Part shown: piece after piece, positions 6,650 to 42,825 of the stretch
Numbering within the stretch: position 1 is the stretch's first letter
Layout of the letters: the number at the start of each line of letters is the position of its first letter
Assembly (NCBI GenBank): GCA_903847605.1
Contig: CAINED010000044.1
Coordinates: forward strand, 62,001 to 126,000
DNA: 64,000 nt
Source: an uncultured Hyphomicrobiales bacterium
Lineage (GTDB): Bacteria; Pseudomonadota; Alphaproteobacteria; Rhizobiales; Beijerinckiaceae
Direction of reading: 5' to 3'
Position numbers and translations under genes: made by a program
Notes under the pieces: model-generated
Told to the model about the DNA's origin: nothing
The model's input: only the letters and a program-made list of their open reading frames with translations
Databases searched by the model: none

Positions 6650-6726
6650 GCATTATCTAGCAAGCAACCAACGGCGCGGCAGCCGCAGGCTTGCCGCGCG
6701 CCACAACGAAAGATGGACTCTCATCA

Positions 6727-8542: not shown

Positions 8543-8607
8543 ACTCCGAGGCGAGCGAATAGTGTCTGTACCGCTACCGAGGCTTTGCCCGAAATGGACA
8601 GCGGAAT

Positions 8608-9582
8608 TCACGCCGGTCGTTCACCTGTGTCGACGGTGATCGACGTGCCGGCGATGCGGGAGACGCAGGCGCAGAGCTTGTGTCCCTCTGCCTTTTCCTC
8701 TTCGTTGAAGAAGACGTCGCGGTGGTCGATCACGCCGTCGACCGCGATCACGTCGAGCGCACAAAGACCGCATTCGCCACGCCGGCAATCGTACATCGCC
8801 TCGATGCCCGCCGCTTCAAGCGCTTCGAGCATGGATTGCGTCTTCGCGACTTCAATCGTGCGTCCGATATGGGGAAGCAGAACGGTGAATGGCGCATTCG
8901 GATATCGTCCGCTGTTGCCGAAAGTCTCGAAGCGCAAATTCGCCGGGGGACGTCCGCTGCGGCTCCAGTGCGCGCGCGCCTCGTCGAGCATGCCAATGGG
9001 GCCGCAGATATAGAGTTCGCCTTCCTTGCCGAGCGAGGCGATGGCTGCGGCGATATCGACGCGCTGGCCGTCCTCTGCGCAGGAAATCTGCAGGCGCTCT
9101 CCGGCGAGCGCGCGGAGATCTTCGGCGAGTACGAGATCGCTGCGTGTGCGCGCGCCGTAGAGGATGCGGAAGTCTTTGCCTTGCGCGGCGAGCGCTCTCG
9201 CCATGGCGTGGATGGGTGTCACGCCGATGCCGCCGGCGATCAGGATGTATTCGTTGCAATCGAGGTTGAGATCGAAGTGATTTGCCGGGGCCGTTGTCTT
9301 CAGTACGGCGCCGGGCTTGAGCGTCCACATATAGGCCGAACCGCCGCGGCTGTCGGACGCGAGTTTGACCGCGACTTCGTGAACGCCATCGCGGCCCGGG
9401 CCCAGCAGCGAATAGGATCGCGTTGAAGGACGTCCCGCGATCTCGACGGCGATGTCGATATGGCTGCCGGGCGCTGCGGGCGCGAACGGTCCCGACATCT
9501 CGATTTCGATGAGCCTGATGTCCGCGCTGAGATCGCGGATGCTCTTCACGCGCGCGCTGCGCCACTCGTTCGCGACGTTCAT
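8608..9582 (-). CDS. class IA ring-hydroxylating oxygenase reductase (ferredoxin-NAD(P)-type)
   Basis: A 324-residue oxidoreductase arranged like phthalate dioxygenase reductase and VanB. It has an N-terminal flavin domain (TRSYSLLG), a nucleotide-binding domain (AGGIGVTPIHAMA, CGPIGML) and a C-terminal plant-type [2Fe-2S] domain. The cluster cysteines are in CRRGECGLC and a later CACVS. It passes electrons from NAD(P)H to a Rieske oxygenase. The start has GAGGGAG upstream. The Rieske oxygenase gene ends 45 bp upstream on the same strand, which strongly suggests a two-component system. It is the only such reductase in the window and might also serve the second Rieske oxygenase at 51462. Confidence 0.9.
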   Translation of the reverse strand: MNVANEWRSARVKSIRDLSADIRLIEIEMSGPFAPAAPGSHIDIAVEIAGRPSTRSYSLLGPGRDGVHEVAVKLASDSRGGSAYMWTLKPGAVLKTTAPANHFDLNLDCNEYILIAGGIGVTPIHAMARALAAQGKDFRILYGARTRSDLVLAEDLRALAGERLQISCAEDGQRVDIAAAIASLGKEGELYICGPIGMLDEARAHWSRSGRPPANLRFETFGNSGRYPNAPFTVLLPHIGRTIEVAKTQSMLEALEAAGIEAMYDCRRGECGLCALDVIAVDGVIDHRDVFFNEEEKAEGHKLCACVSRIAGTSITVDTGERPA

Positions 9583-9627
9583 GACATTCTCCCTCGGCGC
9601 AACCGCTTCATCGGATGTAGAGGCTCG

Positions 9628-10707
9628 CTATTCAGCGGCTTCGCTGTGAAGCCCGGTCACGCCCGTGGACTCGTCCTCGATCATCCGCGCGATGAGCCGT
9701 CGCGCCCAGAGTGCGCCTGCATCGATATTGAGATTGTAGAAGGGCAGGCGGGGATTGTTGTCGATGGCGCGCTGCTGCGCCTCGAGCACGAAAGCGTCCT
9801 GATCGTAGAGGCCCTTGCCCTCTGCGTTGACATGCGCCTGATTGATCTGCCGGGTGAGTTCTGCGTCGTCCTTGCGGAACTGGCGCACGAAGTTCCAGTG
9901 ATAGTGGCAGGTCTTTTCCGTCTCCGGCGTGATCGCCGCCAGGAAGCAGCCGTAAACGCCCTGCGAACGGTCGCCTTCCGGCGCGCCGGTTCCGACTGGC
10001 GCGACGCCGACATCGCCGACGACGATGGAAGGCGCTTCGAAGCGGATGATCTGCCAGCGATCGACATTGCCGGGCTTGCCAAGATTCTTGGCCCAGAACG
10101 GCGGCGGCTCGATGTCATTCATCCAGCGTGTCACCGTCGCGATCCGGCGCGAATGCGTCACGTCGAACGGTGTCTCCGTGACGGCGTCGTTGCCGATGCT
10201 GCCGGCATGCACGTAGGTCTCGTGCGTCAGGTCCATGAGATTGTCGACGATGAGACGGTAGTCGCACTTGAGGCTGTAATAGGTGCCGCCTTCGCCGACG
10301 AATTCCGTGCCGTCGTTCCAGTGGAAGTCGTGCATCTTCGAAGGATCGGCCAGCGCCGGATCGCCCGGCCAAATCCAGATCATGCGGTGGCGCTCGATCA
10401 GTGGATAAGACTTTACGCAGGCGGACGGGTTGATCGTCTTCTGCGCGGGCATGTGGACGCAGCGCCCGTCGGAGTTGAAGGCGATGCCGTGATAGCCGCA
10501 GACGACATTGTCGCCATCGAGCCATCCCAGAGATAGCGGCAACAGGCGATGCCAGCAGGCGTTTTCAAGCGCTACGGCCTCGCCGTTCTGCTGCCGGTAG
10601 AGAACGATGTCTTTGCCGCAGATGGTGCGCGCGGCGAGTGCGCGCGTGATCTCGTGGCTCCAGGCGGCCGCGTACCATGCATTCAGCGGAAAAGTCTGAT
10701 CTGCCAT
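9628..10707 (-). CDS. Rieske-type aromatic ring-hydroxylating/O-demethylating oxygenase, VanA-like
   Basis: A 359-residue terminal oxygenase. The Rieske [2Fe-2S] ligands are Cys51/His53 (CWHR) and Cys70/His73 (CGYHG). The mononuclear iron site is His162/His167 with the bridging Asp159 in DLTHETYVH. Length and architecture match VanA and phthalate-type single-subunit oxygenases, which hydroxylate or O-demethylate aromatic acids. The ATG at 10707 follows GGAGAGGGAC; the upstream extension is dropped. The cognate reductase gene follows. A paralog with the same residue numbering lies at 51462-52490. The exact substrate cannot be told from sequence. Confidence 0.9.
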   Translation of the reverse strand: MADQTFPLNAWYAAAWSHEITRALAARTICGKDIVLYRQQNGEAVALENACWHRLLPLSLGWLDGDNVVCGYHGIAFNSDGRCVHMPAQKTINPSACVKSYPLIERHRMIWIWPGDPALADPSKMHDFHWNDGTEFVGEGGTYYSLKCDYRLIVDNLMDLTHETYVHAGSIGNDAVTETPFDVTHSRRIATVTRWMNDIEPPPFWAKNLGKPGNVDRWQIIRFEAPSIVVGDVGVAPVGTGAPEGDRSQGVYGCFLAAITPETEKTCHYHWNFVRQFRKDDAELTRQINQAHVNAEGKGLYDQDAFVLEAQQRAIDNNPRLPFYNLNIDAGALWARRLIARMIEDESTGVTGLHSEAAE

Positions 10708-11062
10708 GTCCCTCTCCTCCGGGCGCTCCAGCGTCCCTCTCTCCGATGATTGGCGCAAGTGCGCAGGCGTCGATGTCCGCCGCACGAGGACCGATCATGC
10801 CTAAATCGACCTCCCACGATTATCGTGGGGATAATTTTTATGGCGTCGATACGGCGCGCTTAAACGGTCATACGGCGACCGACTTCTTGATTGCTGTCAA
10901 AATCGCGGGATTTTGTGGCTGCTTCCCAACCGTGGGTCGCAAAATGGGCATATGCCCATAAACGCGAGAGTGCGCGTACGGCCTCGTGCGCGATGTCGAA
11001 CGCGAGCTAACGTTTATGGAATGCGCGGAGTGCGCCGCTCCAGCTATCGCTCCGGAATCGAC
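10708..11062. promoter_or_regulatory. 355-bp intergenic region upstream of the Rieske oxygenase, with palindromes
   Basis: No gene is supported. The stretch must hold the promoter of the minus-strand Rieske/reductase operon and the 3' end of the gene at 11063. Two palindromes stand out: a 7-bp inverted repeat with a 3-nt spacer at 10813-10829 (CCCACGA/TCGTGGG) and a perfect 16-bp palindrome at 10944-10959 (ATGGGCATATGCCCAT). The latter is followed on the minus strand by TTTT and could be a weak terminator. Either could be an operator for a regulator not in the window. Confidence 0.4.
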
Positions 11063-11938
11063 CTATTGCGGCTTTGCAGCCTCGTCGGCCGGCCGGACGC
11101 GGATATTATAGGCGATCAGTTTCCAGCCGAGCCCCTCGTAAAGATAAGTGTGATCGAAATGCACGCGCGAGGGGCGCGTCTCGTAAACGCCGGAAATCTT
11201 GAACACGTCGGCGCCGTCGGGCGCGGGCGGCGCGTCGAATGCCGGCGTGAAATTCTCGATCGCGACGAGATTGACGTCCGGATTCATCATCGCTGCGAAT
11301 GCCTTGTCGAGATCGGCGACGCCATATTTCGCGCGGAACCGTTCCGCGATGTGTGCATGAAACGCCTGCATGCTGCGCTCGCGCGCCGCGCGCGCGAAAA
11401 TCAGATTGCTTTCGTGAACAAGACGAACGAGATCGCTTTCTCCGGGTATCCGCTTGTCGGCGCTGGAGGCCTGTCCACCCTGCAAGCCCGCGATTTCCAC
11501 ATCGACATGCTGCACCCGCCACTTGCCCTGAACCTTGGAAAGCCGCACCTCGAGCGTTTGCGTATTCCCGCCGCCGTCCTTCAGCGACCCTTTGAGCGTG
11601 CCGCGCGCATTGTCGCCCGAGCCCTGAATCGACCGGTTCGACCAGCTCGGCGCCTGCGCTTTTTCGAACTGATACTGCTTCACGAAGGCGGCAAATCGTT
11701 CTGGAGACGCGGACTGGCGAAAGCCCGGCGTCGTCAGTTCGTAAGCGCCCTTCTGGTCGCCTTCGCGCAACTTGGCGAAAAAGCTGTTGCCGGCGTCGAC
11801 AAGGTCGCTCGTGAGCCAGAGGACCAGCGCAATAATCGCGGCGATGATGACAATCAGCGCGCCGAATACCTTCAGCAGCAGGCTGCCGATGCTCCGCTTC
11901 GGTTTGAGTTTTGGCGCGGGTTGCGATGCCAGGGTCAT
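11063..11938 (-). CDS. membrane-anchored protein with two NTF2/cystatin-like repeats, function unknown
   Basis: A predicted 291-residue protein with one N-terminal transmembrane helix (about residues 20-45) and a large outside domain. Two halves look alike. The first runs from FFAKLREGDQKGAYELTTPGF to KWRVQHVDV, the second from FARAARERSMQAFHAHIAERF to WKLIAYNIRV. Each is a helix-rich start followed by strands ending in a 'W...' strand, as in DUF4878/NTF2-like domains. This suggests internal duplication. I start it at the ATG at 11938 because AGGAC is well spaced there; the ATG at 11944 is also possible. No enzymatic motif is visible, and the neighbours do not suggest a role. Confidence 0.65.
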   Translation of the reverse strand: MTLASQPAPKLKPKRSIGSLLLKVFGALIVIIAAIIALVLWLTSDLVDAGNSFFAKLREGDQKGAYELTTPGFRQSASPERFAAFVKQYQFEKAQAPSWSNRSIQGSGDNARGTLKGSLKDGGGNTQTLEVRLSKVQGKWRVQHVDVEIAGLQGGQASSADKRIPGESDLVRLVHESNLIFARAARERSMQAFHAHIAERFRAKYGVADLDKAFAAMMNPDVNLVAIENFTPAFDAPPAPDGADVFKISGVYETRPSRVHFDHTYLYEGLGWKLIAYNIRVRPADEAAKPQ

Positions 11939-12046
11939 GCGCATGTCCTGCTAAACTGAGGTGCCATCGAAATATTTGCACAAGCTCTGCGATTTATGCA
12001 ATCTCCGGCCGCGCTGCCTGGGAGGGCAGTATAGAGGGAGGGGCTT

Positions 12047-12523
12047 ATGACGTTCTCAGCGGGCGATCCGTCGCGCAATCCATCGTCGCATCCGATGCTG
12101 TCCTATGCCGATGGCATCGCCGCGATGTGGCAGGACTTCATCATTCTGGTCGGGCGCGTATGCGTCGGCTGGATTTTCATGCAGAGCGGCTTCCGAAAGA
12201 TCTGGGATATGGCCGCCGTCGCCAAAACCTATCCGGCCCGTGGCCTGCCCGAATTCATGGCGTATGTCGCGACACCGATTGAGCTGGTCGTCGGGCTATT
12301 TCTCGTCATTGGTTTCGCGACACGCTATTCGGCTTTCGTGATCCTGATCTTCACGATCGTGGCGAGCTTCAGTTCGCACGCCTACTGGACTTATCCGGAG
12401 GCCCAGCGCGCGCTGCAACACACGCACTTCTTCAAGAACCTGTCGATCAAGGGCGGCTTGATCCTCCTGTTCATCACGGCTGGCGGCAAGTTTTCCGTCG
12501 ATTGGTTCCTGCGCAAGAAATAG
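12047..12523 (+). CDS. DoxX family membrane protein
   Basis: A 158-residue protein with four predicted transmembrane helices. It has the DoxX signature near the start (GRVCVGWIFMQSGFRKIWD), a second helix (PIELVVGLFLVIGFATRYSA) and the HFFKNLSIKGGLILLF segment. DoxX proteins are small quinone-related or redox-linked membrane proteins whose role is often unclear. The start has GGGAGGGG upstream. A strong terminator hairpin follows at 12545. Confidence 0.85.
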   Translation: MTFSAGDPSRNPSSHPMLSYADGIAAMWQDFIILVGRVCVGWIFMQSGFRKIWDMAAVAKTYPARGLPEFMAYVATPIELVVGLFLVIGFATRYSAFVILIFTIVASFSSHAYWTYPEAQRALQHTHFFKNLSIKGGLILLFITAGGKFSVDWFLRKK

Positions 12524-12544
12524 CTGTCTTTGCCGCGAAAGCGA

Positions 12545-12580
12545 GCCGCCGCGCCCACTCGCGCGGCGGCATTTCGTTTC
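12545..12580 (+). terminator. Rho-independent terminator after the DoxX gene
   Basis: A perfect 10-bp GC-rich inverted repeat (12545-12554 with 12561-12570) has a 6-nt loop and is followed by ATTTCGTTTC on the plus strand. It separates two convergent genes and begins 22 bp after the DoxX stop codon. Confidence 0.7.
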
Positions 12581-12581
12581 T

Positions 12582-13571
12582 TCAGAATGCCTCGATGTCC
12601 GGTATCAGCCCATGCTTTTCGGCGAATAGCAGGGGCGCTTGCTGGTAGGAGGGCTTGCTGGCGATTTCGCAAAGCCGGTCCGACAACTCATAAAGGCGCT
12701 GTTCGAGCGGGCTTGTCTCGTCCGTGTCGAAATGGAGGTCGAAACGCTTGTACCGGTCGCGTTCGAAAGGCTTGCCGAACAAGTCTATCGCTTCGCGCAG
12801 CAACAAGGCGGCCTTCGCAAGACCGGCTTCTTCGAGCGCCACGGCGGCTTCTGGCGCGACGGCTCCGGACGAGTTCGAAAAGAACTGGGGCAATCCGCCG
12901 TTCGAGACCTCCCATTCGAATTGAGTAATCGCCATGAAGGCGCGTGATGGGTCGGGCGTCGCGAGATATCGCTTGCAGTCTTTCGCCTTGTCGAGGCTGC
13001 CGATATCGCGCCAGAGTTGAAGAGCGAGCCATTCCGACCGGGCGCGGGGTGTTACCGTTTGTGCATGAGTGCGCATCATGGCGAGCAGGTGGTCGGAAGC
13101 GCGTACATAGTCTTCAACACGCGCGATGAAATCGCCCTTTTTCGCAAAATCGGCTGTTATCGCCATCAGCTTGCGGTCGAAGGCGTTGAGATCGGGCCCG
13201 GTCGTGTATCCAAAGAAGCTCATGCGCTTGTCGCCGTCGAGCGGATAGGTTCGTCCGAAAAGGCCGATTGCTTTAGTGACGAGTTTGGCATGTTCGAAGA
13301 GGCCGACCTCATTGAGGGCGTGCGCTACCTCTCGCGCCATGCCGCCGGACAGAAAGAAGAACGTATGCAGCCCCTCTGCGGCGTCGAGACCCATGTGATA
13401 GGCAGGTATCCCGAGCAACGCCAGCGTACGAGCTGGCGGCGCGAGCGCATTCAGCCGCTCAAGTGTCGCTTCGCGTTCGCCCGCGAGGGCGAAGGGCAAC
13501 TGGAAATCGCGGATGACTGCCGCGAGTGGAAAGGTCCGGTAGGCGTCCGGAATGACGCTGGCGTTGGGCAT
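12582..13571 (-). CDS. DMP19/DUF4375-like protein with an internal duplication
   Basis: This 329-residue protein contains the DMP19/DUF4375-type segment FEWEVSNGGLPQFFSNSSGA followed by ALEEAGLAKAALLLREAIDLFG. The N-terminal half carries a matching segment, GLHTFFFLSGGMAREVAHAL followed by FEHAKLVTKAIGLFG, so the protein looks like two copies of one domain. DMP19 homologs have been proposed to mimic DNA or bind nucleoid proteins in Neisseria, but most bacterial members are uncharacterised. The start is supported by AGGAATTC upstream. No partner gene is evident. Confidence 0.7.
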   Translation of the reverse strand: MPNASVIPDAYRTFPLAAVIRDFQLPFALAGEREATLERLNALAPPARTLALLGIPAYHMGLDAAEGLHTFFFLSGGMAREVAHALNEVGLFEHAKLVTKAIGLFGRTYPLDGDKRMSFFGYTTGPDLNAFDRKLMAITADFAKKGDFIARVEDYVRASDHLLAMMRTHAQTVTPRARSEWLALQLWRDIGSLDKAKDCKRYLATPDPSRAFMAITQFEWEVSNGGLPQFFSNSSGAVAPEAAVALEEAGLAKAALLLREAIDLFGKPFERDRYKRFDLHFDTDETSPLEQRLYELSDRLCEIASKPSYQQAPLLFAEKHGLIPDIEAF

Positions 13572-13653
13572 GCTGAATTCCTGTCGGCCGATAGGTCCGA
13601 CAAGTATCAGTCTGCCCGGATCTGCGCGGTGTGACCGCGCACGACGCGCTTTC

Positions 13654-14835
13654 CTATTTCAGTTCGACCGTCAACGGATTGTAGGAATAGAGCCAGCGGT
13701 TGCGGTCCTCGCCTTCGTTACGCTTGGCGAACTGGGCCTTCGATTCCTCGACGGAATGCAGATGGAAGAGCGTGCGGTTGGCGGAAGATTGCGTCACGAT
13801 CTTGCGCGTCCGTTCCTGCCGTGCCCGCTCGTAGGCGCCGATGGCGTCCTGTATTGACGGGAACTGCGCCAGCGCGCGCGTCAGCACCATGCCATCCTCG
13901 ATCGCCATGACCGCGCCTTGCGCGAGGTAGGGCAGGGTGGGGTGGGCGGCATCGCCCAGAATGGTGGCGCGCTGCGTCGACCATGTCTCGACGTGCGGCC
14001 GGCCATGCAGCGACCAGCGATAGCAGGCGTTGTGGTCGCAGCGGTCGATCACGGTCTGGATCATCTCGTGCCAGCCCACGAAATCGGCCTTGAGCGTCTC
14101 CCAGGGGAATTTCGCGGTCCAGCTTTCTTCCGAGACGTCGTCGGTTTCGACGAGCCCGACGAAGTTCAGGAGCTTTCCGGCACGCAGATAATACATGACG
14201 ACATGCTTGCCCGGACCCATGAAGACCGACATGACCGGCTCCATGATATCCTTGGGCAGGTTCTCGACCGGCACGGTCAGACGCCACGCGGCATCGCCCG
14301 TGTAGGTTGCGGGGACTTGTCCGGCGATCTGCCGGCGCACGACCGATTTCAGCCCGTCCGCGCCGATGAGAAAGTCGCCGTGCGCCTTTTCGCCATTGTC
14401 GAAATGCAGCGTCACGCCCTTGTCGTCTTCGGTAAAGTGCGTGGCGCGATGGTTCAGCTTGATGCTGTCCTTTTTCAGCGAATAGACCTTGGCGGCGAGA
14501 ATTTCGTGCAGGTCGGCGCGGTGAATCTGCACATAGGGCGCGCCATGCATGCGCTCGTGCTCCTGCGCCAGCGCAAACCGCTGGATCTCCTCGCCGGTAT
14601 CGAAAGCGCGGAAGACATAGGCGCCGGGCTTCACCCCCATGCTGACGATCTGGTCGGCGACGCCGAGCTTTTTCAGCACGTGCATCGCATTGGCGCTCAT
14701 CTGAATGCCTGCGCCGACTTCGCCCAGTTGCGGCGCCTGCTCGTAGATGGTGACGTCGTGCCCGGCTTCGAGAAGGTTGGCTGCCGCGGCGAGGCCGCCG
14801 AGACCCGCGCCGGCCATGATGATTTTGTAGCCCAA
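13654..14835 (-). CDS. FAD-dependent aromatic monooxygenase (salicylate hydroxylase/NicC-type)
   Basis: A 393-residue group A flavoprotein monooxygenase. It has the N-terminal dinucleotide-binding motif AGAGLGGLAAA, the middle DG motif GADGLKSVVR and the C-terminal FAD motif GDAAHPTLPYLAQG. Such enzymes use NAD(P)H and O2 to hydroxylate or decarboxylatively hydroxylate aromatic acids. The start is a TTG at 14835 supported by GGAGGAAG; the first ATG would cut into the first beta strand. The isochorismatase-like gene lies 68 bp upstream on the same strand. An FAD monooxygenase paired with such a hydrolase recalls nicotinate pathways (NicC and NicF), but that is only a hint. Confidence 0.85.
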   Translation of the reverse strand: MGYKIIMAGAGLGGLAAAANLLEAGHDVTIYEQAPQLGEVGAGIQMSANAMHVLKKLGVADQIVSMGVKPGAYVFRAFDTGEEIQRFALAQEHERMHGAPYVQIHRADLHEILAAKVYSLKKDSIKLNHRATHFTEDDKGVTLHFDNGEKAHGDFLIGADGLKSVVRRQIAGQVPATYTGDAAWRLTVPVENLPKDIMEPVMSVFMGPGKHVVMYYLRAGKLLNFVGLVETDDVSEESWTAKFPWETLKADFVGWHEMIQTVIDRCDHNACYRWSLHGRPHVETWSTQRATILGDAAHPTLPYLAQGAVMAIEDGMVLTRALAQFPSIQDAIGAYERARQERTRKIVTQSSANRTLFHLHSVEESKAQFAKRNEGEDRNRWLYSYNPLTVELK

Positions 14836-14903
14836 GGCTTCCTCCGTCAGATGCTATTCCGTCCGCTTTTCGGGCGCACACTTCGCCGATGAATTGACTT
14901 TCG

Positions 14904-15590
14904 TCAAACCCCGTGTGCTTCCAGCGCCGCCACCGCCTCGTCCGCGCTCATCACGTCGCCGAATTGCTGGATGAAGGTTTCGAGCGCGGCAAGGTGCTCC
15001 TCGTCCGACAGGGCGGCGCAGCAGTCCGAGAGCATCACGGTCTTGAAATCCAGCATCATGGCGTCGCGCGCCGTCGCCTCGCAGCAGACGTTCGTCTTCG
15101 TGCCCGCGATCAGCAGCGTATCGATTCCCCGACTGCGCAGCACACGCTCCAGCGTCGAGGAGCCCGAAATCAGGGCGCTATACCTGTTCTTGACGATGAC
15201 GATATCGTCGTTGCCCTGTTCGAGGTCCTGCCAGACTTTCTGGCGGCCGGGCGACAGGCTTTCGATCGTCCTCAGACGCACGTCGTCGCTGACCACGTGA
15301 TTGAAGAAAAGCTCCCAGTCGCTGCGCCCGTTGCTGTGGGTGTTGGCGTGCAGCACCCAGATGACGGGCACGCCGAGCGGCCGCAGCCGCCGGGTGAGCG
15401 CGTTGATCGCCGGAACGATCCCGCGGGAGCCTGCGACCTCCGCCGGTGAACCCGGCGCACAAAAGGTCTCCTGCATGTCGATGATGACAAGCGCGGCGCT
15501 CGCAGGATCGAGCGTTTCAAACCAGCGCAGCCTGCCGCGCCGCGCCACGACGCGCTCGACGATATGGGGACGGATGGAAACCTTATGCAA
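14904..15590 (-). CDS. isochorismatase-like cysteine hydrolase
   Basis: A predicted 228-residue hydrolase of the isochorismatase/nicotinamidase fold. The catalytic triad is visible: Asp in VIIDMQ, Lys in VIVKNRYSA and Cys in KTNVCCEATA, with the usual HANT segment. Members hydrolyse amides such as maleamate, carbamoylsarcosine or nicotinamide. The start is uncertain. No ATG lies near, and a TTG at 15590 gives a normal-length protein overlapping the upstream gene by 8 bp. It precedes the FAD monooxygenase gene and may act on its downstream product. Confidence 0.8.
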   Translation of the reverse strand: MHKVSIRPHIVERVVARRGRLRWFETLDPASAALVIIDMQETFCAPGSPAEVAGSRGIVPAINALTRRLRPLGVPVIWVLHANTHSNGRSDWELFFNHVVSDDVRLRTIESLSPGRQKVWQDLEQGNDDIVIVKNRYSALISGSSTLERVLRSRGIDTLLIAGTKTNVCCEATARDAMMLDFKTVMLSDCCAALSDEEHLAALETFIQQFGDVMSADEAVAALEAHGV

Positions 15591-16578
15591 GATTGAGATC
15601 CGCGACACGTTCGTGAAATGTGAAACGGAAGTCCGGGAGGCTAGCCAAGTTTTTCCCCAATGCAAAATCGAATTCTGCGCTGTAACTCAGCATACCGCTG
15701 GCAGGCGCAATAGTAATCTCGCCCAAATAAATCTTCTCGTCCAGAATATACAGATCGACCCTCAAGAAGGGATAGTGCCGGCCGATTTCTTCGGAAATCC
15801 GCTTTGCGTCGCCAAGTCGCCGAGGCAGGGACACTGCGAGCAACGGACGACTGCTCTTCGATTGCTCGGCACAGGGGCGAAATTCGTCATCGAGCAACAC
15901 ACCTTCAACAATTCTTCCGTTTTTGACGCAAGTGACGCTAATGAATGCCAGTTTTCCGTCGAGTATGTGAAAACGCCAATCCAGAAGCTCATCTCCGCTG
16001 CCGAGGCGATCTTCGATGAGTATTTCCCTTTCGAAGGCGGAATACCACCACTCTCCATTTCGGTGTCCATAATCGTCCGCAAGCCATTCCCTGCACTTGG
16101 CTTGCGCTGCGGCGCGGGTATCGCTGTCGAGAGGATATGCCAATGAAAGATACATTCCTGCGCCGTGGTTGGCCTTCAAGATATAATTCCCCGCGGGCAA
16201 TTCATCGTTGTTGGGCAATACGGCCTGCTTCGATCTGTAGCGAAGGGGCGCGGTGTCGATCTCGCCTGCCAGGCTTTTCGGTATGTGCTTCGCTGTCAGC
16301 AGCTTGTTGCCGGCGACAGGCACGGGAAGGAGGCCAAAAAACTTCTGCCAGAATATCTTCTCCGAATATCTTTTCGGCTTGTCGAAGCGAGGCCAAAAAC
16401 CCATTCTGCCTTTGAAGTGACAGGCAGCTTGTTCAAGGGCGGCCCCGAATTCTTCGCGGGAATAGAAATCGACCCCGCGCATCCAGCCTGCGGGTGGTTG
16501 GCGATCGAAGAATTCGGGATGTCTCCACCTGAGCCTCCGCAGCGGCCAGCCCACGTTCCAGATCAACTCCAAATTCAT
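15583..16578 (-). CDS. TupA-like ATP-grasp protein
   Basis: A 331-residue protein resembling the TupA-like ATP-grasp family (Pfam ATPgrasp_TupA). Supporting segments are KPKRYSEKIFWQKFF near residue 70, the nucleotide-binding loop ILKANHGAGM, the WRFHILDGKLAFI strand and the metal-binding end VDLYILDEKIYLGEITIAPA. The known relative TupA helps make teichuronopeptide. Gram-negative homologs are often found in polysaccharide or glycopeptide gene clusters, where they probably ligate an amino acid or sugar acid. Here no glycan genes are nearby. It overlaps the hydrolase gene by 8 bp. The start lacks a clear ribosome site. Confidence 0.75.
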   Translation of the reverse strand: MNLELIWNVGWPLRRLRWRHPEFFDRQPPAGWMRGVDFYSREEFGAALEQAACHFKGRMGFWPRFDKPKRYSEKIFWQKFFGLLPVPVAGNKLLTAKHIPKSLAGEIDTAPLRYRSKQAVLPNNDELPAGNYILKANHGAGMYLSLAYPLDSDTRAAAQAKCREWLADDYGHRNGEWWYSAFEREILIEDRLGSGDELLDWRFHILDGKLAFISVTCVKNGRIVEGVLLDDEFRPCAEQSKSSRPLLAVSLPRRLGDAKRISEEIGRHYPFLRVDLYILDEKIYLGEITIAPASGMLSYSAEFDFALGKNLASLPDFRFTFHERVADLNLA

Positions 16579-16780
16579 TTGAAAGCCAACTATTATTGCG
16601 GTTCAGGCTTGTTACCGGATGTGTGCGGAAGAGGAAACTTTCCATGAAGGACATCCTTCAACATTGCCGGCGGCGACGATTGCTTTAGTTCCCCATCCTG
16701 CCGTGGCGCGGGACGAAACTTGTGCTACGCTCGCCCCGGGCGGCGCGGAAACAGCCGCCGGAACAAGGGAGGGCCTCACG

Positions 16781-17809
16781 ATGAATAGCGCACCGCTTCG
16801 CGCCGCGTTCGCGGCTTTGCTGTTATCCTCGTTCGCTTTGCCTGCGGCAGCCGCCGACGCGGCGCTGATTGCCGCGGCGAAGAAGAACGGCAGGCTGACC
16901 TGGTATACGACGCTGATCGTCAATCAGTTTGCGCGTCCCGTGGCCGACGCCTTCCAGAAGAAATACGGCATTCGCGTCGATTACACGCGCGCCGACAATA
17001 CCGAGACTAACCTGCGCATCGCCAACGAGGTGAAAGCAGGCCGCATATCCGTGGACGTGTTCGACGGCTTTGGCGCGCCCGCGCTGGAACGGGCCGGGGC
17101 GCTCGTGCCTTTCGTGCCCGACGGCGCCAAGGCATTCGGCCCGGAATTCTACGACCCCAACGGCCTGTGGGTGGCGACGAATGTTTACATACTCACGCCC
17201 GGCTACAACACGCAGATGATCCCCAAGGGTACGGAGCCCAGGACATTCGAGGATCTTCTCGACCCCAAATACAAGGGCAGGATCACCTGGAACACCAATC
17301 TCACGCCGTCGGGCGCGCCGGGGTTCGTCGGCGTCGTGCTTGCGGAAATGGGCGAGCAGAAGGGGATGGATTACCTGCGCAGGCTCGCGGCGCAGCAGAT
17401 CGTCGGCCAGCGCATTGCGGCGCGCGCCGTGCTCGATCGTGTGATCGCCGGCGAATACGCCATCGCGCTTCAGATATTCAATCACCATGCCGTCATCAGC
17501 GCAAAGAAAGGCGCGCCGTCCGACTGGATCCCCATGCAGCCGGCGCTTGGCGTGCTCAGCGTCTTCTCCATCGTGAAGAACGGGCCGAATACCGATGCGG
17601 CCAAGCTGTTTCTGGACTTCCTGACGTCGGCGGAAGGGCAGGCCTTCTTCCGTGACGCAGACTATATCCCCGTCGATCCCAAGGTGCCGCCGCTCGAACC
17701 TTCGCTGCGGCCCGATGGAAAGACGTTGCGCACGAAATATTTCACGCCTGCGCAGGTCGACGAGAATCTCACCAAGTGGTCGGACATCGCCAAGGACATC
17801 TTCAAGTGA
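16781..17809 (+). CDS. ABC-type extracellular solute-binding protein, iron(III)/family 1
   Basis: A 342-residue periplasmic binding protein. The signal peptide MNSAPLRAAFAALLLSSFAL ends at AAAADAA. The mature part has LTWYTTLIVNQFARPVADAF, which is typical of the Fe(III)/thiamine-type family 1 binding proteins, and the C-terminal FLDFLTSAEGQAFF. The ATG at 16781 follows AGGGAGGGCC. The next gene (cupin) starts inside its stop codon (GTGA), so they are coupled. No permease or ATPase gene is adjacent. Confidence 0.85.
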   Translation: MNSAPLRAAFAALLLSSFALPAAAADAALIAAAKKNGRLTWYTTLIVNQFARPVADAFQKKYGIRVDYTRADNTETNLRIANEVKAGRISVDVFDGFGAPALERAGALVPFVPDGAKAFGPEFYDPNGLWVATNVYILTPGYNTQMIPKGTEPRTFEDLLDPKYKGRITWNTNLTPSGAPGFVGVVLAEMGEQKGMDYLRRLAAQQIVGQRIAARAVLDRVIAGEYAIALQIFNHHAVISAKKGAPSDWIPMQPALGVLSVFSIVKNGPNTDAAKLFLDFLTSAEGQAFFRDADYIPVDPKVPPLEPSLRPDGKTLRTKYFTPAQVDENLTKWSDIAKDIFK

Positions 17810-18333
17810 TCGCAAGGCCGGTCGACAGGCGGTTTCCCGACCCGGGCGTAGCGGCGCTTTATGCCGCCACGCTGTTCTGCATTATCGCCAGCGCCGTACT
17901 TTGGACGCGCAGCGCCCCCATAGGTCTTGTCTCGCTGGCGCAACTTTATGCCTCCATCTGCGAGAGCGCGCCGCTCGTCCTGAACATGAGTGCGAGCGAA
18001 GGCGCGCGCCCGAAATCCATCGTCACCATCGTGTCGCAGGAAGATATCGGCGACGGTAAAATGCTGACCGTGCAGCGCGTGCAATATCCGCCGCGGGCTT
18101 TCACGCCAAAACATGTGCATGGCGGCGTCGTGCAGGCCTATGTCACGAAAGGCGTGTTGCGTTCCCACGTATCGGGACAGGAGCCCGGCGAGTTTACCGT
18201 CGGCGGGACGTTTCACGAGACATACGGCGCTATCCACTATTTCGTCGAAAATCCCAGCGCGACCGAATGGGCGGAATTGCTGGCAATTCAGGTTCACCGC
18301 CGCGGCGAGGCGCTGACGACATTCGTCGATTGA
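17806..18333 (+). CDS. membrane-anchored cupin-domain protein
   Basis: A predicted 175-residue protein with one N-terminal transmembrane helix (about residues 14-34) and a cupin barrel. The barrel is visible in YPPRAFTPKHVHGG, which contains HxH metal ligands, and in GTFHETYGAIHYFVEN. Cupins of this type bind a metal and may act as sensors or small-molecule enzymes. The GTG start at 17806 overlaps the preceding stop by 4 bp, and the stop overlaps the next ATG (TGATG), so it is the middle gene of a tightly coupled operon. The function is unknown. Confidence 0.75.
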   Translation: MIARPVDRRFPDPGVAALYAATLFCIIASAVLWTRSAPIGLVSLAQLYASICESAPLVLNMSASEGARPKSIVTIVSQEDIGDGKMLTVQRVQYPPRAFTPKHVHGGVVQAYVTKGVLRSHVSGQEPGEFTVGGTFHETYGAIHYFVENPSATEWAELLAIQVHRRGEALTTFVD

Positions 18334-19160
18334 TGGCAAGACCGGTCAAATCCGCTCCTGCGCAGACCGCGGTCCCCTGGAACCTCGGCGATCTCCTGAA
18401 ATGGGGCGCGGTCTTCCTCTCGTTCCAGTATGTGTTGGGAGTCCTGCTCTCGACGTTTCTGCCGTCGATAGCCTCGATGATGATTTGCTTTTTTCTGGGC
18501 ATTCCCATCGGCGCTATCATGTGCAGGGGCGTGCAGGGGCTGTTCTTCCCGGGAGCCGCGATTGCTGCCTTCACAGGCGTGTTCCCCGGCACGATCATCG
18601 ATGTGCCGCTCTTTGGCCGCGTTGCCGAATTGCCGGTCGTGGGCGCGGCTCCAAGCGGTCCTTTCGTCGCGGCCTACACGACGAACGGGTGGCAGATTGC
18701 GACACAGCACACATACGTGACGCCATTAGGACAGTCGCGTCGTTCCAAACGCTATGGCGACCGGCACATTGCACCTCTCGTCCGGCCGGGATGGTCGCCC
18801 TCCGAGCCGATCGAATACTGGGTCATGGCGGAAACGCGTGACAGCGGCCGAAGAACCCTCTGGCATCCCGATGACTGGGCCCATAATGGCGGTGAATTCG
18901 TCAGGGTCACCGGCAACGAGAAAGAAGGCGCGAAGAACACCGCGCTATTCGCCTCGGAAAAGTTCTCTCTCAAGAGCGTGGCGGAACCGGAAGTTCTGTT
19001 CCGAACGGAGTCCGCGCAGGACGCAATCATCGCGCAATACGGCTTGCTCGGCTGGATGTATGTAACGCTCCTTGCCGCATGGGCGATCGTGGTTCTCGCG
19101 TTCAGGGAGCTCGCAAGGCTCTGGCGGCGCGCGAAAACTCTGGTGCAAAAGCGCAAGTAG
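18333..19160 (+). CDS. uncharacterised membrane protein, first of a tandem paralogous pair
   Basis: A 275-residue protein with about three N-terminal transmembrane helices (residues 20-100), a soluble middle domain and one C-terminal helix followed by a basic tail. The middle domain contains FVAAYTTNGW, HIAPLVRPGW, AETRDSGRRTLWHP and NGGEFVRVTG. All of these recur in the next gene (19268-20047). I do not recognise the family. It starts at the ATG at 18333, overlapping the cupin stop codon by one base. The topology suggests that the conserved middle domain lies on one face of the inner membrane, perhaps periplasmic. Confidence 0.7.
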   Translation: MARPVKSAPAQTAVPWNLGDLLKWGAVFLSFQYVLGVLLSTFLPSIASMMICFFLGIPIGAIMCRGVQGLFFPGAAIAAFTGVFPGTIIDVPLFGRVAELPVVGAAPSGPFVAAYTTNGWQIATQHTYVTPLGQSRRSKRYGDRHIAPLVRPGWSPSEPIEYWVMAETRDSGRRTLWHPDDWAHNGGEFVRVTGNEKEGAKNTALFASEKFSLKSVAEPEVLFRTESAQDAIIAQYGLLGWMYVTLLAAWAIVVLAFRELARLWRRAKTLVQKRK

Positions 19161-37427: not shown

Positions 37428-37677
37428 CAACGACGCCTCGCCCCCGGCGATGGCATTTCGACAATGCGCATCCGCTCCCGCAATTGCAGCCTTACATGAT
37501 CGCGATTTCAATGGCCAGCGCCAGCGCTGGTGCGTGAGGCGGAGTTCGCCGGGGCGCTTCGAACGAGAATGCCGTCAGGCGCGCCGGAATTTCCTACCGC
37601 TTCGGCGGCTGAGCTTGTGACGCATTCGTGACTTCTGGCCTGTTTCCAGTTGATCGATCGCGCGCTACCTAGTGTGC

Positions 37678-39489
37678 ATGAATTCGCCTGTTACCATTGA
37701 CGGTCCGCTACTCGTTTTCGGCGGCGTCTATTCCAACCTCCATGCATTGCGGGCGCTCTTCGCCGAGGCCGAGCGGCGCGGCATCGCGCCGGCGAACATG
37801 ATCTGCACCGGCGACATCGCCGCCTATGGCGCGGATGCGAAGCCCTGTCTCGATCTCATCCGCGAGGCCGGGATCGCCTGCATATCCGGCAATTGCGAGG
37901 AACAGTTCGCGCTTGCCGCCGCCGATTGCGGCTGCGGTTATGCGCCCGGCAGCGCCTGCGATCTTCTGGCGGTGAAATGGTTCGCCCACGCCTCCGCACA
38001 ATTCGACGACGACGACCGCCGCTGGATGGCGGACCTGCCGCAGCGGCTCGATCTCCTTGTCGGCGGCTTGAAGCTGACAGCGATCCACGGCGCTCTCAAC
38101 GCCATCAACCGCTTCGTCTTTCCCTCGACGCAATGGCGCGTGAAACAGCACGACATCGACGCCGCGGGCTGCGACGGCATTCTGGCCAGCCACAGCGGCA
38201 TTCCCTTCTCGCAGGTGCGCGAGGGAAAACTCTGGCACAATTCCGGCGCGCTCGGCATGCCCGCCAACGATGGCACGCCGCGCGTCTGGTTTTCGGTGAT
38301 CGCGCCGGGACGCGAAGATCGCCGGCTCGATATCGAACACGTCGCGCTCGCTTACGACGCGGACGGCGCATCGCGCGCCATGTACGCAGCCGGTCTGCCC
38401 GAAGGCTATGCGCAGGCGCTGACGAGCGGCCTCTGGCCAAGCTGCGATTCCATGCCGCCGGAAGAAGTGAAGGCGACAGGCAAGGCGCTGGCGCCCGGAC
38501 GATTGCGCTGGCGCGCGGATGGCTTGCAGGAAGCGCAATGGCCTGCGGCAACGCAAAAGCCTGCTGCGCCCGCCGCCAAATTCTCCGATCCGCTGATCAC
38601 TGAGGCTGGCGAGCCGCGGGCCAGCGTCGCGCTTGAGATGCTGGAAACGCTCTGGATCAACACGGGCACGCTCTGCAATCTCGCCTGCGCCTCCTGCTAT
38701 ATCGAGTCGACGCCACGCAACGACCGTCTCGTCTATATTTCCGCGCAGGAAGTTGCCGCCTATCTCGACGAGATCGAGCAAGATCGTCTCGGCACGACAA
38801 CGATCGGCTTTACCGGCGGCGAGCCCTTTCTCAATCCCGATATGACCGCCATGATGGAAGGCGCGCTGTCGCGCGGCTTCGAAGTCATCGTACTGACCAA
38901 TGCCATGAAGCCGATGCGCCGCTTCGAGCGCAGGCTGATCGCGTTGAACGAGAAGTATCGCGAGCGCCTCACGATGCGCGTCTCGCTCGATCACTATACG
39001 CAGGATCTGCACGAACTCGAACGCGGCCAGCGCACGTGGCAGCCGGCCATCGACGGATTGAAATGGCTGGCGCACAACGACTTTCGCATTCATGTCGCGG
39101 GCCGCGCCTATTCCGGCGAAGCCGAGGGTATCGTGCGCGCCGGTTATGGCAAGCTGCTCTCGGGCCTTGGCGTGAAACTCGATGCGCGAGATCCCGGCGA
39201 ACTCGTGCTGTTTCCCGAGATGGATACATCCAGGGACGTGCCCGAGATCACGACATCCTGCTGGGGCATTCTGGACAAGTCGCCGTCCGAGGTTATGTGT
39301 TCGAATTCGCGCATGATCGTGAAACGCAAGGGCGCCGGACGTCCCGCGGTCGTCGCCTGCACCCTGCTGCCCTACGATGCGGCATTTGAACTGGGGGCCA
39401 CGCTGACGGATGCGCGAAAGTCCGTGCCGCTCAACCATCCCTATTGCGCGCAGTTTTGCGTGCTTGGCGGCGCGGCCTGCAAAAGGTGA
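37678..39489 (+). CDS. phosphoesterase-like/radical SAM fusion protein
   Basis: A 603-residue two-domain protein. Residues 10-280 follow the calcineurin-like phosphoesterase plan (FGGVYSNLHAL, CTGDIAAYG, ISGNCEEQ, AIHGAL, SHSGIPF, NSGALGMPANDGTP). Several classical metal ligands are replaced: Asp-x-His by Gly-x-Tyr, GNH by GNC, GHxH by SHSG. Residues 325-600 form a radical SAM domain with Cys333, Cys337 and Cys340 (CNLACASC) and GFTGGEP. An extra C-terminal cysteine set includes TSCWG, MCSNS, ACTLLP and CAQFCVLGGAAC, as in SPASM-like auxiliary Fe-S sites. The likely chemistry is radical modification of an unknown substrate. ATG 37678 is preferred over GTG 37672. No ribosome site is evident. 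Confidence 0.85.
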   Translation: MNSPVTIDGPLLVFGGVYSNLHALRALFAEAERRGIAPANMICTGDIAAYGADAKPCLDLIREAGIACISGNCEEQFALAAADCGCGYAPGSACDLLAVKWFAHASAQFDDDDRRWMADLPQRLDLLVGGLKLTAIHGALNAINRFVFPSTQWRVKQHDIDAAGCDGILASHSGIPFSQVREGKLWHNSGALGMPANDGTPRVWFSVIAPGREDRRLDIEHVALAYDADGASRAMYAAGLPEGYAQALTSGLWPSCDSMPPEEVKATGKALAPGRLRWRADGLQEAQWPAATQKPAAPAAKFSDPLITEAGEPRASVALEMLETLWINTGTLCNLACASCYIESTPRNDRLVYISAQEVAAYLDEIEQDRLGTTTIGFTGGEPFLNPDMTAMMEGALSRGFEVIVLTNAMKPMRRFERRLIALNEKYRERLTMRVSLDHYTQDLHELERGQRTWQPAIDGLKWLAHNDFRIHVAGRAYSGEAEGIVRAGYGKLLSGLGVKLDARDPGELVLFPEMDTSRDVPEITTSCWGILDKSPSEVMCSNSRMIVKRKGAGRPAVVACTLLPYDAAFELGATLTDARKSVPLNHPYCAQFCVLGGAACKR

Positions 39490-39642
39490 CACGGCTCCCG
39501 CCTGCGCCGCCTTCGCGTCGGAGCTGAAGCGAGCATGAGTTATTCTCATGCGTCGCCTCAGAACAAATCGTTTGCGTGGTGGGCCTGAAATCGCGACCTT
39601 GCGCACGCTCCGGCCATAGCGCCGCGCGGGAGGGTTTGCGCC

Positions 39643-40905
39643 ATGCTCGATTCTGACTCCGTTGCAACACCGATCGAACTCGATCCACGCATTGCCGATT
39701 TCGCAATGGGCGATTTTTCCGCCTCCGAATATGTGGCGCGCGCCCGGGCGCTCGTGCCGGTGCTTCGCGAGCGGGCGCAGGAGCAATGGGGCGTCAACCG
39801 GCTCATGGACAAGACCGCGGCGTTGATGCACGAGGCCGGCATCTTCCGCATGCTGCAGCCCAAACGCTTCGGCGGCGGCGAGACGAGCCCCATCGAATGG
39901 CTGGAGACGATCTCGACTCTCGCCGAAGGCGATCCCTCCGTCGCCTGGACGACGGGCGTTCTTGGCATCCATTCCTTCCATCTCGCGCATTTCTGCGAAG
40001 AGGCGCAGCAGGATGTGTGGGGCGCGAACGAACATGCTCTGCTCTCTTCGCCCTACGCGCCCAATCCCGTGCAGAAAGTCGATGGCGGCTTTCTCGTTTC
40101 GGGCGTTTGGAAGTTTGCGACCGGCGTTCACCACTGCGCCTATGCCGTGATCGGCGGCGCGGTCTATGACCGCGAATTGCAGCCGGGCGACGACCGCATG
40201 CGCACCGGCGACTTCCGGGCCTTCCTCGTCGCGCGCGACCAGTTCACGATAGGCGAGAACTGGGATGTCTCGGGCATGCGCGGCACCGGCAGCCATGACA
40301 TCATCGTCGACAATGTCTTCGTGCCGGAGCATCGCACACTCGCCTTCCGTCATGTCACCATGGGCACGACGCCGGGCAGGCTCGTCAATCCCGGCATTCT
40401 CTATCAGTTGCCGTTCTGGCAGGTGCTCGGACGTATCACGACATCGCCCGTGCCTCTTGGTGCGCTGAAGTCGATGGCCGACCAGTTCTGCGAACGCGCA
40501 CGCGCGCGCGTAAATCTTCGCGGCCAGCGCACGGCCGAGGATCCCGTCGCCACACTCGCCGTCGCCAACGCCTATGCGGCGATCGACGAGATCAAGGGCA
40601 ATTGCTACCGCAATCTCGGCCGCCTGATGAAAGCCGTTGCGGCAGGCGGAACGCTGCCCCTGACCGAACGCATGATGTTCCGCTATCAGACGAGTTCCGC
40701 AACGTATCGCGTTGCAGAACTTGCGCTTGCCTTGTTCAAGGCCTGCGGCGCATCGGGCATCTACAGCGATCAGCCCTACGGGCGCCTGCTGAACGACATC
40801 GTCGCCGTGACAGGCCATGCCTCGAACCAGCACCAGGGCAATGCCAACGCCCTGGCGGGCGTTCTCATGGGCCTGCCGGTAGAGCAGGTCGATCCGCGCG
40901 CGTGA
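39643..40905 (+). CDS. group D flavin monooxygenase (acyl-CoA dehydrogenase fold, HpaB-C2/HsaA-like)
   Basis: A 420-residue protein of the acyl-CoA dehydrogenase fold. The N-terminal helical part (LMHEAGIFRMLQPKRFGGGE), the middle beta domain (SGVWKFATGVHHCAYAVIGG, WDVSGMRGTGSHDIIVDNVFVP) and the C-terminal helical bundle fit oxygenase subunits such as p-hydroxyphenylacetate hydroxylase C2 and HsaA. These accept reduced flavin from a separate reductase. The usual catalytic Glu of dehydrogenases is not evident. No flavin reductase gene is adjacent. A LysR regulator follows on the same strand. GGGAGG precedes the ATG. Confidence 0.8.
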   Translation: MLDSDSVATPIELDPRIADFAMGDFSASEYVARARALVPVLRERAQEQWGVNRLMDKTAALMHEAGIFRMLQPKRFGGGETSPIEWLETISTLAEGDPSVAWTTGVLGIHSFHLAHFCEEAQQDVWGANEHALLSSPYAPNPVQKVDGGFLVSGVWKFATGVHHCAYAVIGGAVYDRELQPGDDRMRTGDFRAFLVARDQFTIGENWDVSGMRGTGSHDIIVDNVFVPEHRTLAFRHVTMGTTPGRLVNPGILYQLPFWQVLGRITTSPVPLGALKSMADQFCERARARVNLRGQRTAEDPVATLAVANAYAAIDEIKGNCYRNLGRLMKAVAAGGTLPLTERMMFRYQTSSATYRVAELALALFKACGASGIYSDQPYGRLLNDIVAVTGHASNQHQGNANALAGVLMGLPVEQVDPRA

Positions 40906-42402: not shown

Positions 42403-42477
42403 CGATTCTCTCCCGATAATGACACCGTGCGGGCGAGAGTTTATGAGGTCGTGCCGCCATTCTCAACGGGGAGCGCC

Positions 42478-42825
42478 ATGGCCGTCACCATCTATGGAAT
42501 CAAGAACTGCGATACGATGAAGAAGGCGCGGGCCTGGCTCGACGAACGCAAGATCGCTTATTCGTTTCACGACTATAAGGCGTCAGGCATCGACAGGACG
42601 ACGCTTCAGGGATGGGCGAGGAAGGCCGGATGGGAAAAGCTGCTCAATCGCGCAGGCACGACTTTCAGGAAACTGCCCGATGCCGACAAGGCCAATATCG
42701 ACGAAGCCAGCGCGATTGACCTGATGTTGGCGCAGCCCTCGATGATCAAGCGGCCTGTCACTGTAGTCGGCGAGAAACTGCATGTTGGCTTTCATTCCGA
42801 CGACTTTGCCCGATTGTTCGGGTGA
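42478..42825 (+). CDS. ArsC/Spx-fold protein, YffB-like
   Basis: A 115-residue thioredoxin-fold protein. The N-terminal IYGIKNCDTMKKARAWL has the single-Cys motif of the YffB subgroup of the arsenate reductase/Spx family. It lacks a second resolving Cys nearby, so glutathione would be the likely partner. The later KRPVTVVGEKLHVGF matches the family's C-terminal 'RP' segment. YffB has not been shown to reduce arsenate. GGGGAG precedes the ATG. Confidence 0.85.
   Translation: MAVTIYGIKNCDTMKKARAWLDERKIAYSFHDYKASGIDRTTLQGWARKAGWEKLLNRAGTTFRKLPDADKANIDEASAIDLMLAQPSMIKRPVTVVGEKLHVGFHSDDFARLFG

Follow-up and report, generated by a model that had tools for sequence, protein, structure and literature searches.

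What does a protein made of a metallophosphoesterase (MPE)-like domain and a radical SAM (S-adenosylmethionine) enzyme do? The question is raised by one open reading frame (ORF) at positions 37678 to 39489, plus strand, of a 64,000-nucleotide stretch of DNA (here the window) from an uncultured Hyphomicrobiales bacterium (contig CAINED010000044.1). An earlier reading of the letters, the original prediction, had described it as a phosphoesterase fold joined to a radical SAM domain. From comparison with related loci and genomes we propose, with a probability of roughly 60%, that the radical SAM half, from a family without a name, is a counterpart but not an orthologue of ArsS in a pathway of the arsenosugar type, and that the MPE partner fused to it has been remodelled. 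ArsS, according to the accessible part of one report (PMC12159101), adenosylates arsenic in oxo-arsenosugar biosynthesis. The fusion gene would probably take part in making an arsenic-containing sugar along a route not yet charted.

The frame, supported by orthologues, runs uninterrupted from an ATG at 37678 to a TGA at 39487-39489, encoding 603 amino acids (aa) plus stop, with an in-frame GTG upstream at 37672. Residues 1-280 (37678-38517, plus strand like all parts of the gene given below) form the MPE-like domain, as placed by Pfam, profile alignment, Foldseek and an alignment of 30 sequences; residues 295-603 (38560-39486) form the radical SAM domain with its C-terminal cysteine region, as placed by Pfam, alignment and Foldseek. 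The match to PF04055 (Radical_SAM; residues 327-470, 62.8 bits, Pfam cut-off 29.5) puts the second half in that superfamily. Those of residues 12-201 to PF12850 and PF00149 (18.5 and 18.0 bits) lie under the cut-offs of 27 and 21.5, so that Pfam supports the predicted radical SAM domain directly and leaves the predicted phosphoesterase domain below threshold. Among MPE relatives, the one in locus L003 passes both of these models, a Roseomonas one passes PF12850 and the one in L029 fails. An AlphaFold2 model, for which the window protein was combined with 22 relatives, shows two ordered domains at a mean pLDDT of 83.8 (pTM 0.60). Foldseek matches its MPE half to the metallophosphoesterases 3rqz, 3qfm and 1nnw and its radical SAM half to SkfB, BlsE, SuiB and DesII. 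Both folds of the original prediction are thus recovered, and the motifs it named (GGVYSN, GNCEE, SHSG, CNLACASC, GFTGGEP and the C-terminal cysteines) are all present in the translation. With L028 as reference, dN/dS comes to about 0.19 in the MPE half and about 0.12 in the radical SAM half, values made rough by high dS; purifying selection acts on both halves. An antisense open frame of 1041 aa (37708-40833, minus strand) spans the gene and probably arises from the GC-rich third positions of its codons.

Could the fusion result from an overlooked stop codon or frameshift? Six further distinct loci hold both halves in one stop-free frame: L003 (Afipia), L028, G469, G494, G515 and G095. L028, titled Beijerinckiaceae, evidently represents the contig of G520, which is from the window's genus. 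All fusions have MPE before radical SAM. This is the reverse of the order in the directly adjacent split pairs (L081-L088, gaps of at most 74 bases), where radical SAM precedes MPE in 8/8, so a lost stop codon cannot explain the fusion; in L137-L139 the two genes lie 1.5 to 7.6 kb apart. With no stops in seven distinct two-domain fusions, the window's included, and the opposite order of the split pairs, a missed stop or frameshift is ruled out and the predicted fusion stands. Parsimony places three changes of the fusion label on each of the MPE and radical SAM trees, and a single fusion clade is not rejected (approximately unbiased (AU) test, p = 0.454 for radical SAM with L065 added, p = 0.249 for MPE). 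In the window's genus, G562 carries a fused gene (L100:6882-8630) that keeps the radical SAM motifs and has a shortened MPE half without the front motifs; the radical SAM gene of G500 lacks an MPE half.

To which family does the radical SAM half belong? It contains the expected SAM-binding [4Fe-4S] motif CxxxCxxC (C333, C337 and C340; 38674-38697), GFTGGEP (residues 377-383; 38806-38826) and six C-terminal cysteines (C528, C541, C561, C590, C594 and C601; within 39259-39480). All nine of these cysteines are invariant in 21/21 aligned sequences, and the C-terminal six are likely to ligate auxiliary clusters. The SPASM model is not among the Pfam matches of the window protein (E up to 10), the six invariant cysteines notwithstanding. 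The best NCBIfam matches are to the Rv1681 family (NF049973; 94.2 bits, cut-off 380) and to ArsS (TIGR04167; 64.4 bits, cut-off 300). Both scores are far under the curated cut-offs, which rules out membership of either; judged by these models, the radical SAM half is a family without a name in NCBIfam. The family occurs in 114/384 sampled genomes of the window's class; the sample holds 385, and the window's own (G000) is dropped from class counts and kept in family counts. Other carriers are Balneolaceae, a Gemmatimonadota, a Bdellovibrionaceae and a Pseudomonadales assembly. The named loci, mostly from metagenome assemblies, number 29: 28 with the radical SAM gene and L029 with MPE alone. A divergent radical SAM relative (32% identity) lies in two pieces at L178:8001-8868, on plasmid pHP-187 of Marinobacter adhaerens, where no gene is annotated.

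The neighbours of this family point to arsenic and sugars. In 9/28 named loci (eight Balneolaceae and one Bdellovibrionaceae) an ArsM frame lies directly upstream of the radical SAM frame and overlaps it. The ArsM of L026 (Balneolaceae) matches solved arsenite methyltransferases, first 5evj (E = 5e-102), then 4kw7 and 4fr0; the copies in L026 and L009 score under the curated cut-offs of the NCBIfam ArsM models. The recurring partners are ArsM, relatives of the glycosyltransferase-like families TIGR04283 and TIGR04282, a MerA-like disulfide reductase and a VTT membrane protein, joined in a few loci by MTAP (MTAP-like genes are found in 3/72 radical SAM loci and 3/35 MPE loci). ArsM is present in 18, and a TIGR04283 relative in 21, of the 72 radical SAM loci of at least 5 kb, a non-random set in which several were chosen for ArsM. 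For the 15 such loci of the window's family the counts are 9/15 for a TIGR04283 relative, 9/15 for the MerA-like reductase and 4/15 for ArsM within 5 kb of the radical SAM gene. ArsM, the radical SAM gene and TIGR04282/TIGR04283 relatives come together in L120, L123, L125, L126 (which also has MTAP), L143, L144, L146 and L147. After the Afipia fusion in L003 stand MTAP (NF006492; 513.6 bits, cut-off 437), VTT, TIGR04283 (264.1 bits, cut-off 182) and TIGR04282 (177 bits, cut-off 134). In the ArsM loci of G532, G558, G555 and G459 the relatives exceed the TIGR04283 cut-off; in L126 and L117 they are under both the TIGR04282 and TIGR04283 cut-offs. Near the TIGR04283/TIGR04282 pair of two genomes, a CxxxCxxC protein of about 375 aa (L169:8443-9570 and L174:8532-9659) may, from this motif, be another radical SAM protein.

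The original prediction had seen no partner nearby and had called the product unknown. Between 33781 and 42822 of the window this remains true, while the related loci show an arsenosugar-type set. Beside the fusion lie a tripartite tricarboxylate transporter, an acyl-CoA dehydrogenase-like gene and a LysR regulator. A small ArsC/Spx-family gene near it (42466-42822; PF03960, 83.6 bits) is probably unrelated to arsenic. Elsewhere in the genome, adjacent TIGR04283 and TIGR04282 genes on another contig, C48, are both over their cut-offs (269.9 bits, cut-off 182, and 186.2 bits, cut-off 134), and contig C41 holds an MTAP homologue 63% identical to that of Afipia.

Does the association extend to whole genomes? 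Our survey of carriers covered TIGR04283, and TIGR04282 was scored at the loci and in the window's genome. Within the class, a TIGR04283 match (E of at most 1e-20) is present in 110/114 radical SAM-positive and 44/270 negative genomes (Fisher 7e-54), or in 96/114 and 28/270 when the curated cut-off is applied. With one genome per family (G001-G138), the sole control for phylogeny in these tests, the counts are 39/40 against 16/98, or 35/40 against 11/98 over the cut-off. The window's family gives 16/16 against 11/183. Sorted by MPE presence, 21/23 positive and 133/361 negative genomes have the match, with G014, G053 and G147 counted as MPE-only. As a control, HpnH is present in 19/40 radical SAM-positive and 8/40 negative genomes, and in 19/35 and 7/19 of those of at least 2.3 Mb. 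Under the same size limit TIGR04283 stands at 35/35 against 4/19; its excess outlasts the limit and far exceeds that of the control, so the link to TIGR04283 is specific. For ArsM, the query was the Balneolaceae protein and up to five candidates per genome were scored. A match at E = 1e-25 was found in 16/385 class genomes, 14 of them radical SAM-positive, including all 10 of the long form; within the window's family the long form occurs in five genomes, of which 4/5 are positive.

If the family stands in for ArsS, how are the two distributed? TIGR04167 was searched for in 80 genomes, made up of 36 genomes that carry the radical SAM gene, among them that of the window, and 44 that are TIGR04283-positive and lack it. 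Of the 36 carriers, 0/36 gave canonical ArsS, and the window's genome has no ArsS match at 1e-30. The two genomes of the 80 that have it, G014 and G147, are both without the radical SAM gene. In each, one cluster holds the MPE gene and ArsS along with a TIGR04283 relative, an MTAP-like gene and a VTT-reductase protein; the G014 scores are 445.7 bits for ArsS (cut-off 300) and 146.6 bits for the TIGR04283 relative (cut-off 182). Just before canonical ArsS in L092:2752-4884 and L170:2751-4901, a frame of about 710 aa apparently fuses a VTT membrane domain to a MerA-like disulfide reductase.

What, then, of the MPE half? The ligand set of catalytic two-metal metallophosphoesterases consists of D-x-H, GD, GNH, H and GHxH. 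We mapped these positions by profile alignment to 3rqz and followed them through 30 sequences, the window's among them; L065 and L100 were omitted (their MPE half is eroded and the match falls short of a full domain), and the Roseomonas MPE and loci added later lie outside this alignment. The L036 row starts past motif I and its frame there differs from the family, which leaves 29 readable rows at that site. In GGVYSN (residues 15-20; 37720-37737), G16 and Y18 take the places of the canonical Asp and His of D-x-H in 29/29 readable rows, and N20 is kept in 30/30. The bridging Asp of GD (D46; residues 45-46, 37810-37815) is retained in 30/30. In GNCEE (residues 71-75; 37888-37902) the ligand N72 is present in 30/30, and C73 replaces the catalytic His in 28/30, the two others, L092 and L170, having Val. 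The His ligand of HG (H137; residues 137-138, 38086-38091) is retained in 30/30. In SHSG (residues 171-174; 38188-38199), which corresponds to GHxH, H172 is kept and G174 stands for the second His, each in 30/30. The two-metal set is thus incomplete through four changes (D to G, H to Y, GNH to GNC, GHxH to [GS]HxG). To the motifs already named we add a family-specific loop, C84-x-C86-x7-C94 (37927-37959), with C84 in 29/29 readable rows and C86 and C94 in 30/30, where AlphaFold2 confidence is about 70.

We take the lost residues to be the ligands exclusive to one metal together with the catalytic acid, and the four that are kept to be the other site. Read in this way, the loss of three ligands of one site, the retention of the four of the other and the gain of cysteines are a subfamily signature, which the original prediction had offered as a possibility in place of decay. 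Since the signature is common to the 30-sequence family and the half is under purifying selection, decay of the window's MPE is ruled out. The loss of one metal site and of the catalytic His, together with the conserved cysteines, makes an ordinary two-metal phosphatase unlikely. The role put forward in the original prediction, in which the first domain would bind a substrate or nucleotide on behalf of the radical enzyme, may be possible. NCBIfam gave no strong match to the 30 sequences (best E = 4.8e-6). The MPE frame at L083:5917-6906 (G226; the same gene in L036) is without the family front motif GGxY[SG]N and differs before the conserved Asn, possibly through an assembly frame problem or a diverged start.

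The surroundings of MPE genes bear on how an arsenic substrate might be supplied. On plasmid p546-1 of Roseomonas haemaphysalidis (L177) the annotated genes run TIGR04282, DUF547, a second radical SAM and the radical SAM gene of the present family; they are followed by a binding protein of the phosphonate type, PhnE, an ABC ATPase and, at 50% identity to the MPE half of the window protein, a metallophosphoesterase. PhnD-PhnE-ATPase homologues also adjoin MPE in L092, L138 (with a fragmentary PhnD), L139, L141 and L170, the PhnD proteins being 56-63% identical; the phosphonate-type importer is thus present in 6/35 MPE loci, from three genera. ArsM is present in 0/35, in a sample that is non-random, part of it chosen for ArsM and some loci overlapping. 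Among radical SAM-positive genomes MPE is found in 0/14 of those with long ArsM and in 29/116 of the others, a weak and post hoc avoidance (one-sided p = 0.023; p = 0.13 in the class alone). The importer beside MPE and the lack of ArsM in MPE loci suggest that the MPE version may draw on an imported oxyanion, for example a methylated arsenical. A fuller scheme is conceivable, in which a second, independently recruited radical SAM arsenosugar route would be fed by either ArsM or phosphonate-type ABC import of methylated arsenic and the MPE fold would, in the import case, carry or reduce arsenic by means of thiols and would sometimes be fused to the radical SAM enzyme; taken with all its parts, we hold it to be quite unlikely. 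G562 has a PhnD orthologue at 60%, with no MPE match in the surrounding 18 kb.

Other genes in these loci deserve mention. The L177 cluster (6031-18909) also holds a MerA-like FAD oxidoreductase, VTT and glycosyltransferases, and its second radical SAM gene (7589-8968) is TrsS-like (100 bits, cut-off 490); at 1e-8 it matches nothing in the remaining loci of at least 5 kb. Four loci have a symporter-like gene next to MPE or not far from it (L003:6313-7758, L029:6565-7953, L089:12854-14311 and L091:5673-7145); two tested copies have no Pfam match at 1e-8, and TIGR00813 gives only 30.2 bits against 184. In the Marinobacter locus a gene annotated as a sodium:solute symporter (L178:9319-10680) follows the divergent radical SAM relative.

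Linkage and motifs together suggest the following order of steps. Trivalent methylated arsenic would be supplied by ArsM or by import. The radical SAM half would cleave SAM reductively at the CxxxCxxC cluster and, most likely, form a C-As bond by transfer of the 5'-deoxyadenosyl group to arsenic that is trivalent and probably methylated. Adenine would next be taken off by an MTAP-like phosphorylase, and the TIGR04282 and TIGR04283 proteins would complete the sugar. Chemistry of the adenosyl type is favoured because of the MTAP-like genes in a few clusters and the glycosyltransferase-like genes. The MPE half would work with the radical SAM half, most likely by binding or handing over the arsenic substrate, or as a scaffold of the complex.

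Several observations weigh against this proposal. An arsenic source was not found in the window's genome, which has no ArsM match at E = 1e-15 and only a distant PhnD (best 27% identical). ArsM matches at E = 1e-25 are present in just 14/114 class carriers, 10 of them long form, and G423 has ArsM without the radical SAM gene. Of the 44 class genomes with TIGR04283 and without the radical SAM gene, 42 are also without ArsS, so TIGR04283 alone is no proof of an arsenosugar route; TIGR04282 and TIGR04283 owe their arsenosugar name to NCBIfam curation, and several relatives in ArsM loci are just under the cut-offs. The excess of MTAP in carriers (38/40 against 15/40) shrinks to 33/35 against 14/19 (p = 0.083) in genomes of at least 2.3 Mb, and the MTAP link mostly reflects genome size. 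The fused genes mostly stand alone, L003 being the only one of seven fused loci with both glycosyltransferases nearby, and the eroded MPE half in G562 and its absence from the G500 gene show that MPE is not essential. Profile comparison with ArsS reaches the core only, and many of the named relatives come from metagenome assemblies, in which neighbours and taxonomy may err.

Might the radical SAM enzyme adenosylate something else? The acceptor could be another metalloid, selenium for instance, or an organic or lipid substrate, as hopene is for HpnH, and the same glycosyltransferases could serve the product. The absence of an ArsM match from most carriers is in keeping with this, as is the importer beside MPE, whose PhnD-like protein is of the phosphate/phosphite/phosphonate type and matches a putative selenate binding-protein model at only 82.7 bits (cut-off 250); HpnH shares the radical SAM core at a low score (31.2 bits, cut-off 225). 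Linkage to ArsM recurs in Balneolaceae, Bdellovibrionaceae and Alphaproteobacteria, and MPE is linked to canonical ArsS; both observations argue for arsenic, and we consider a different acceptor unlikely, if the most serious of the alternatives. A second question concerns the MPE half alone and is compatible with an ArsS-like role for the radical SAM half: it could have remained a hydrolase, a phosphoesterase that uses one metal and has Cys where the catalytic His would be, dephosphorylating an intermediate such as MTAP-derived ribose-1-phosphate. The complete set D46, N72, H137 and H172 in 30/30 sequences fits such an enzyme, and the nearest folds include the Ap4A hydrolase 3qfm; the joint loss of the catalytic His and of the three ligands that serve the other metal alone, and the erosion or absence of the half in G562 and G500, make us doubt it.

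The remaining alternatives fare worse. The best solved relatives of the radical SAM half include SkfB, YydG/EpeE and SuiB, which, with the six conserved C-terminal cysteines, would suit a maturase of ribosomally synthesized and post-translationally modified peptides (RiPPs) having auxiliary clusters and the MPE as recognition partner; no recurrent small ORF appears in the neighbourhood clusters, among ORFs of at least 90 aa, and the linkage is to arsenic and sugar genes, so this reading is very improbable. A generic fusion tied to no specific pathway, its associations a matter of genome size or lifestyle as the mild enrichment of HpnH might suggest, is hardly credible given the far stronger excess of TIGR04283 under the size limit and the clusters that hold pathway genes.

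If the ArsS-like role is correct, a function can be assigned to an unnamed radical SAM family present in 114 of the 384 class genomes, in Balneolaceae and in one assembly each of Gemmatimonadota and Bdellovibrionaceae. The makers of C-As bonds would then extend past ArsM, ArsS and ArsL, which bears on the origin of organoarsenicals in soils and seas. The MPE half offers a clean example of a fold that has lost one of two metal sites and gained cysteines. In the open-access literature, which leaves most subscription papers outside, we found nothing joining arsenosugars with a phosphoesterase, and just two papers in which the terms 'arsenosugar' and 'radical SAM' both occur.

How does the fusion compare with known systems? 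The MPE half resembles 3rqz and SapH (3qfm) in fold and length (Foldseek E = 6e-14 and 6e-13) and shares one ligand set with them; it differs in lacking the other metal site and the catalytic His and in its added cysteine loop. VPS29, the retromer protein of MPE fold, is also similar (E of about 1e-6). It has a scaffold role and an altered catalytic residue, its altered residues being different from those of the MPE half, and we know of no radical SAM partner for it. For the radical SAM half, the closest NCBIfam match, the Rv1681 family, covers only residues 324-483 at its sub-threshold score. ArsL of arsinothricin biosynthesis is, in the accessible part of its description, a radical SAM enzyme of 428 aa encoded beside ArsM that forms a C-As bond, with three conserved cysteines only and a predicted aminocarboxypropyl transfer (PMC8552651). 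What it has in common with the present family is the radical SAM type, the ArsM neighbour found in some loci of the family and the C-As bond formation proposed here. ArsS differs in the spacing of the C-terminal cysteines, and the window protein scores 64.4 bits against the cut-off of 300 for its model. The radical SAM core is nevertheless alike (hhalign against two ArsS proteins, probability 98, 142 columns, 25% identity), and both enzymes keep the same genomic company: TIGR04283/TIGR04282 relatives, MTAP-like genes, VTT and a MerA-like reductase.

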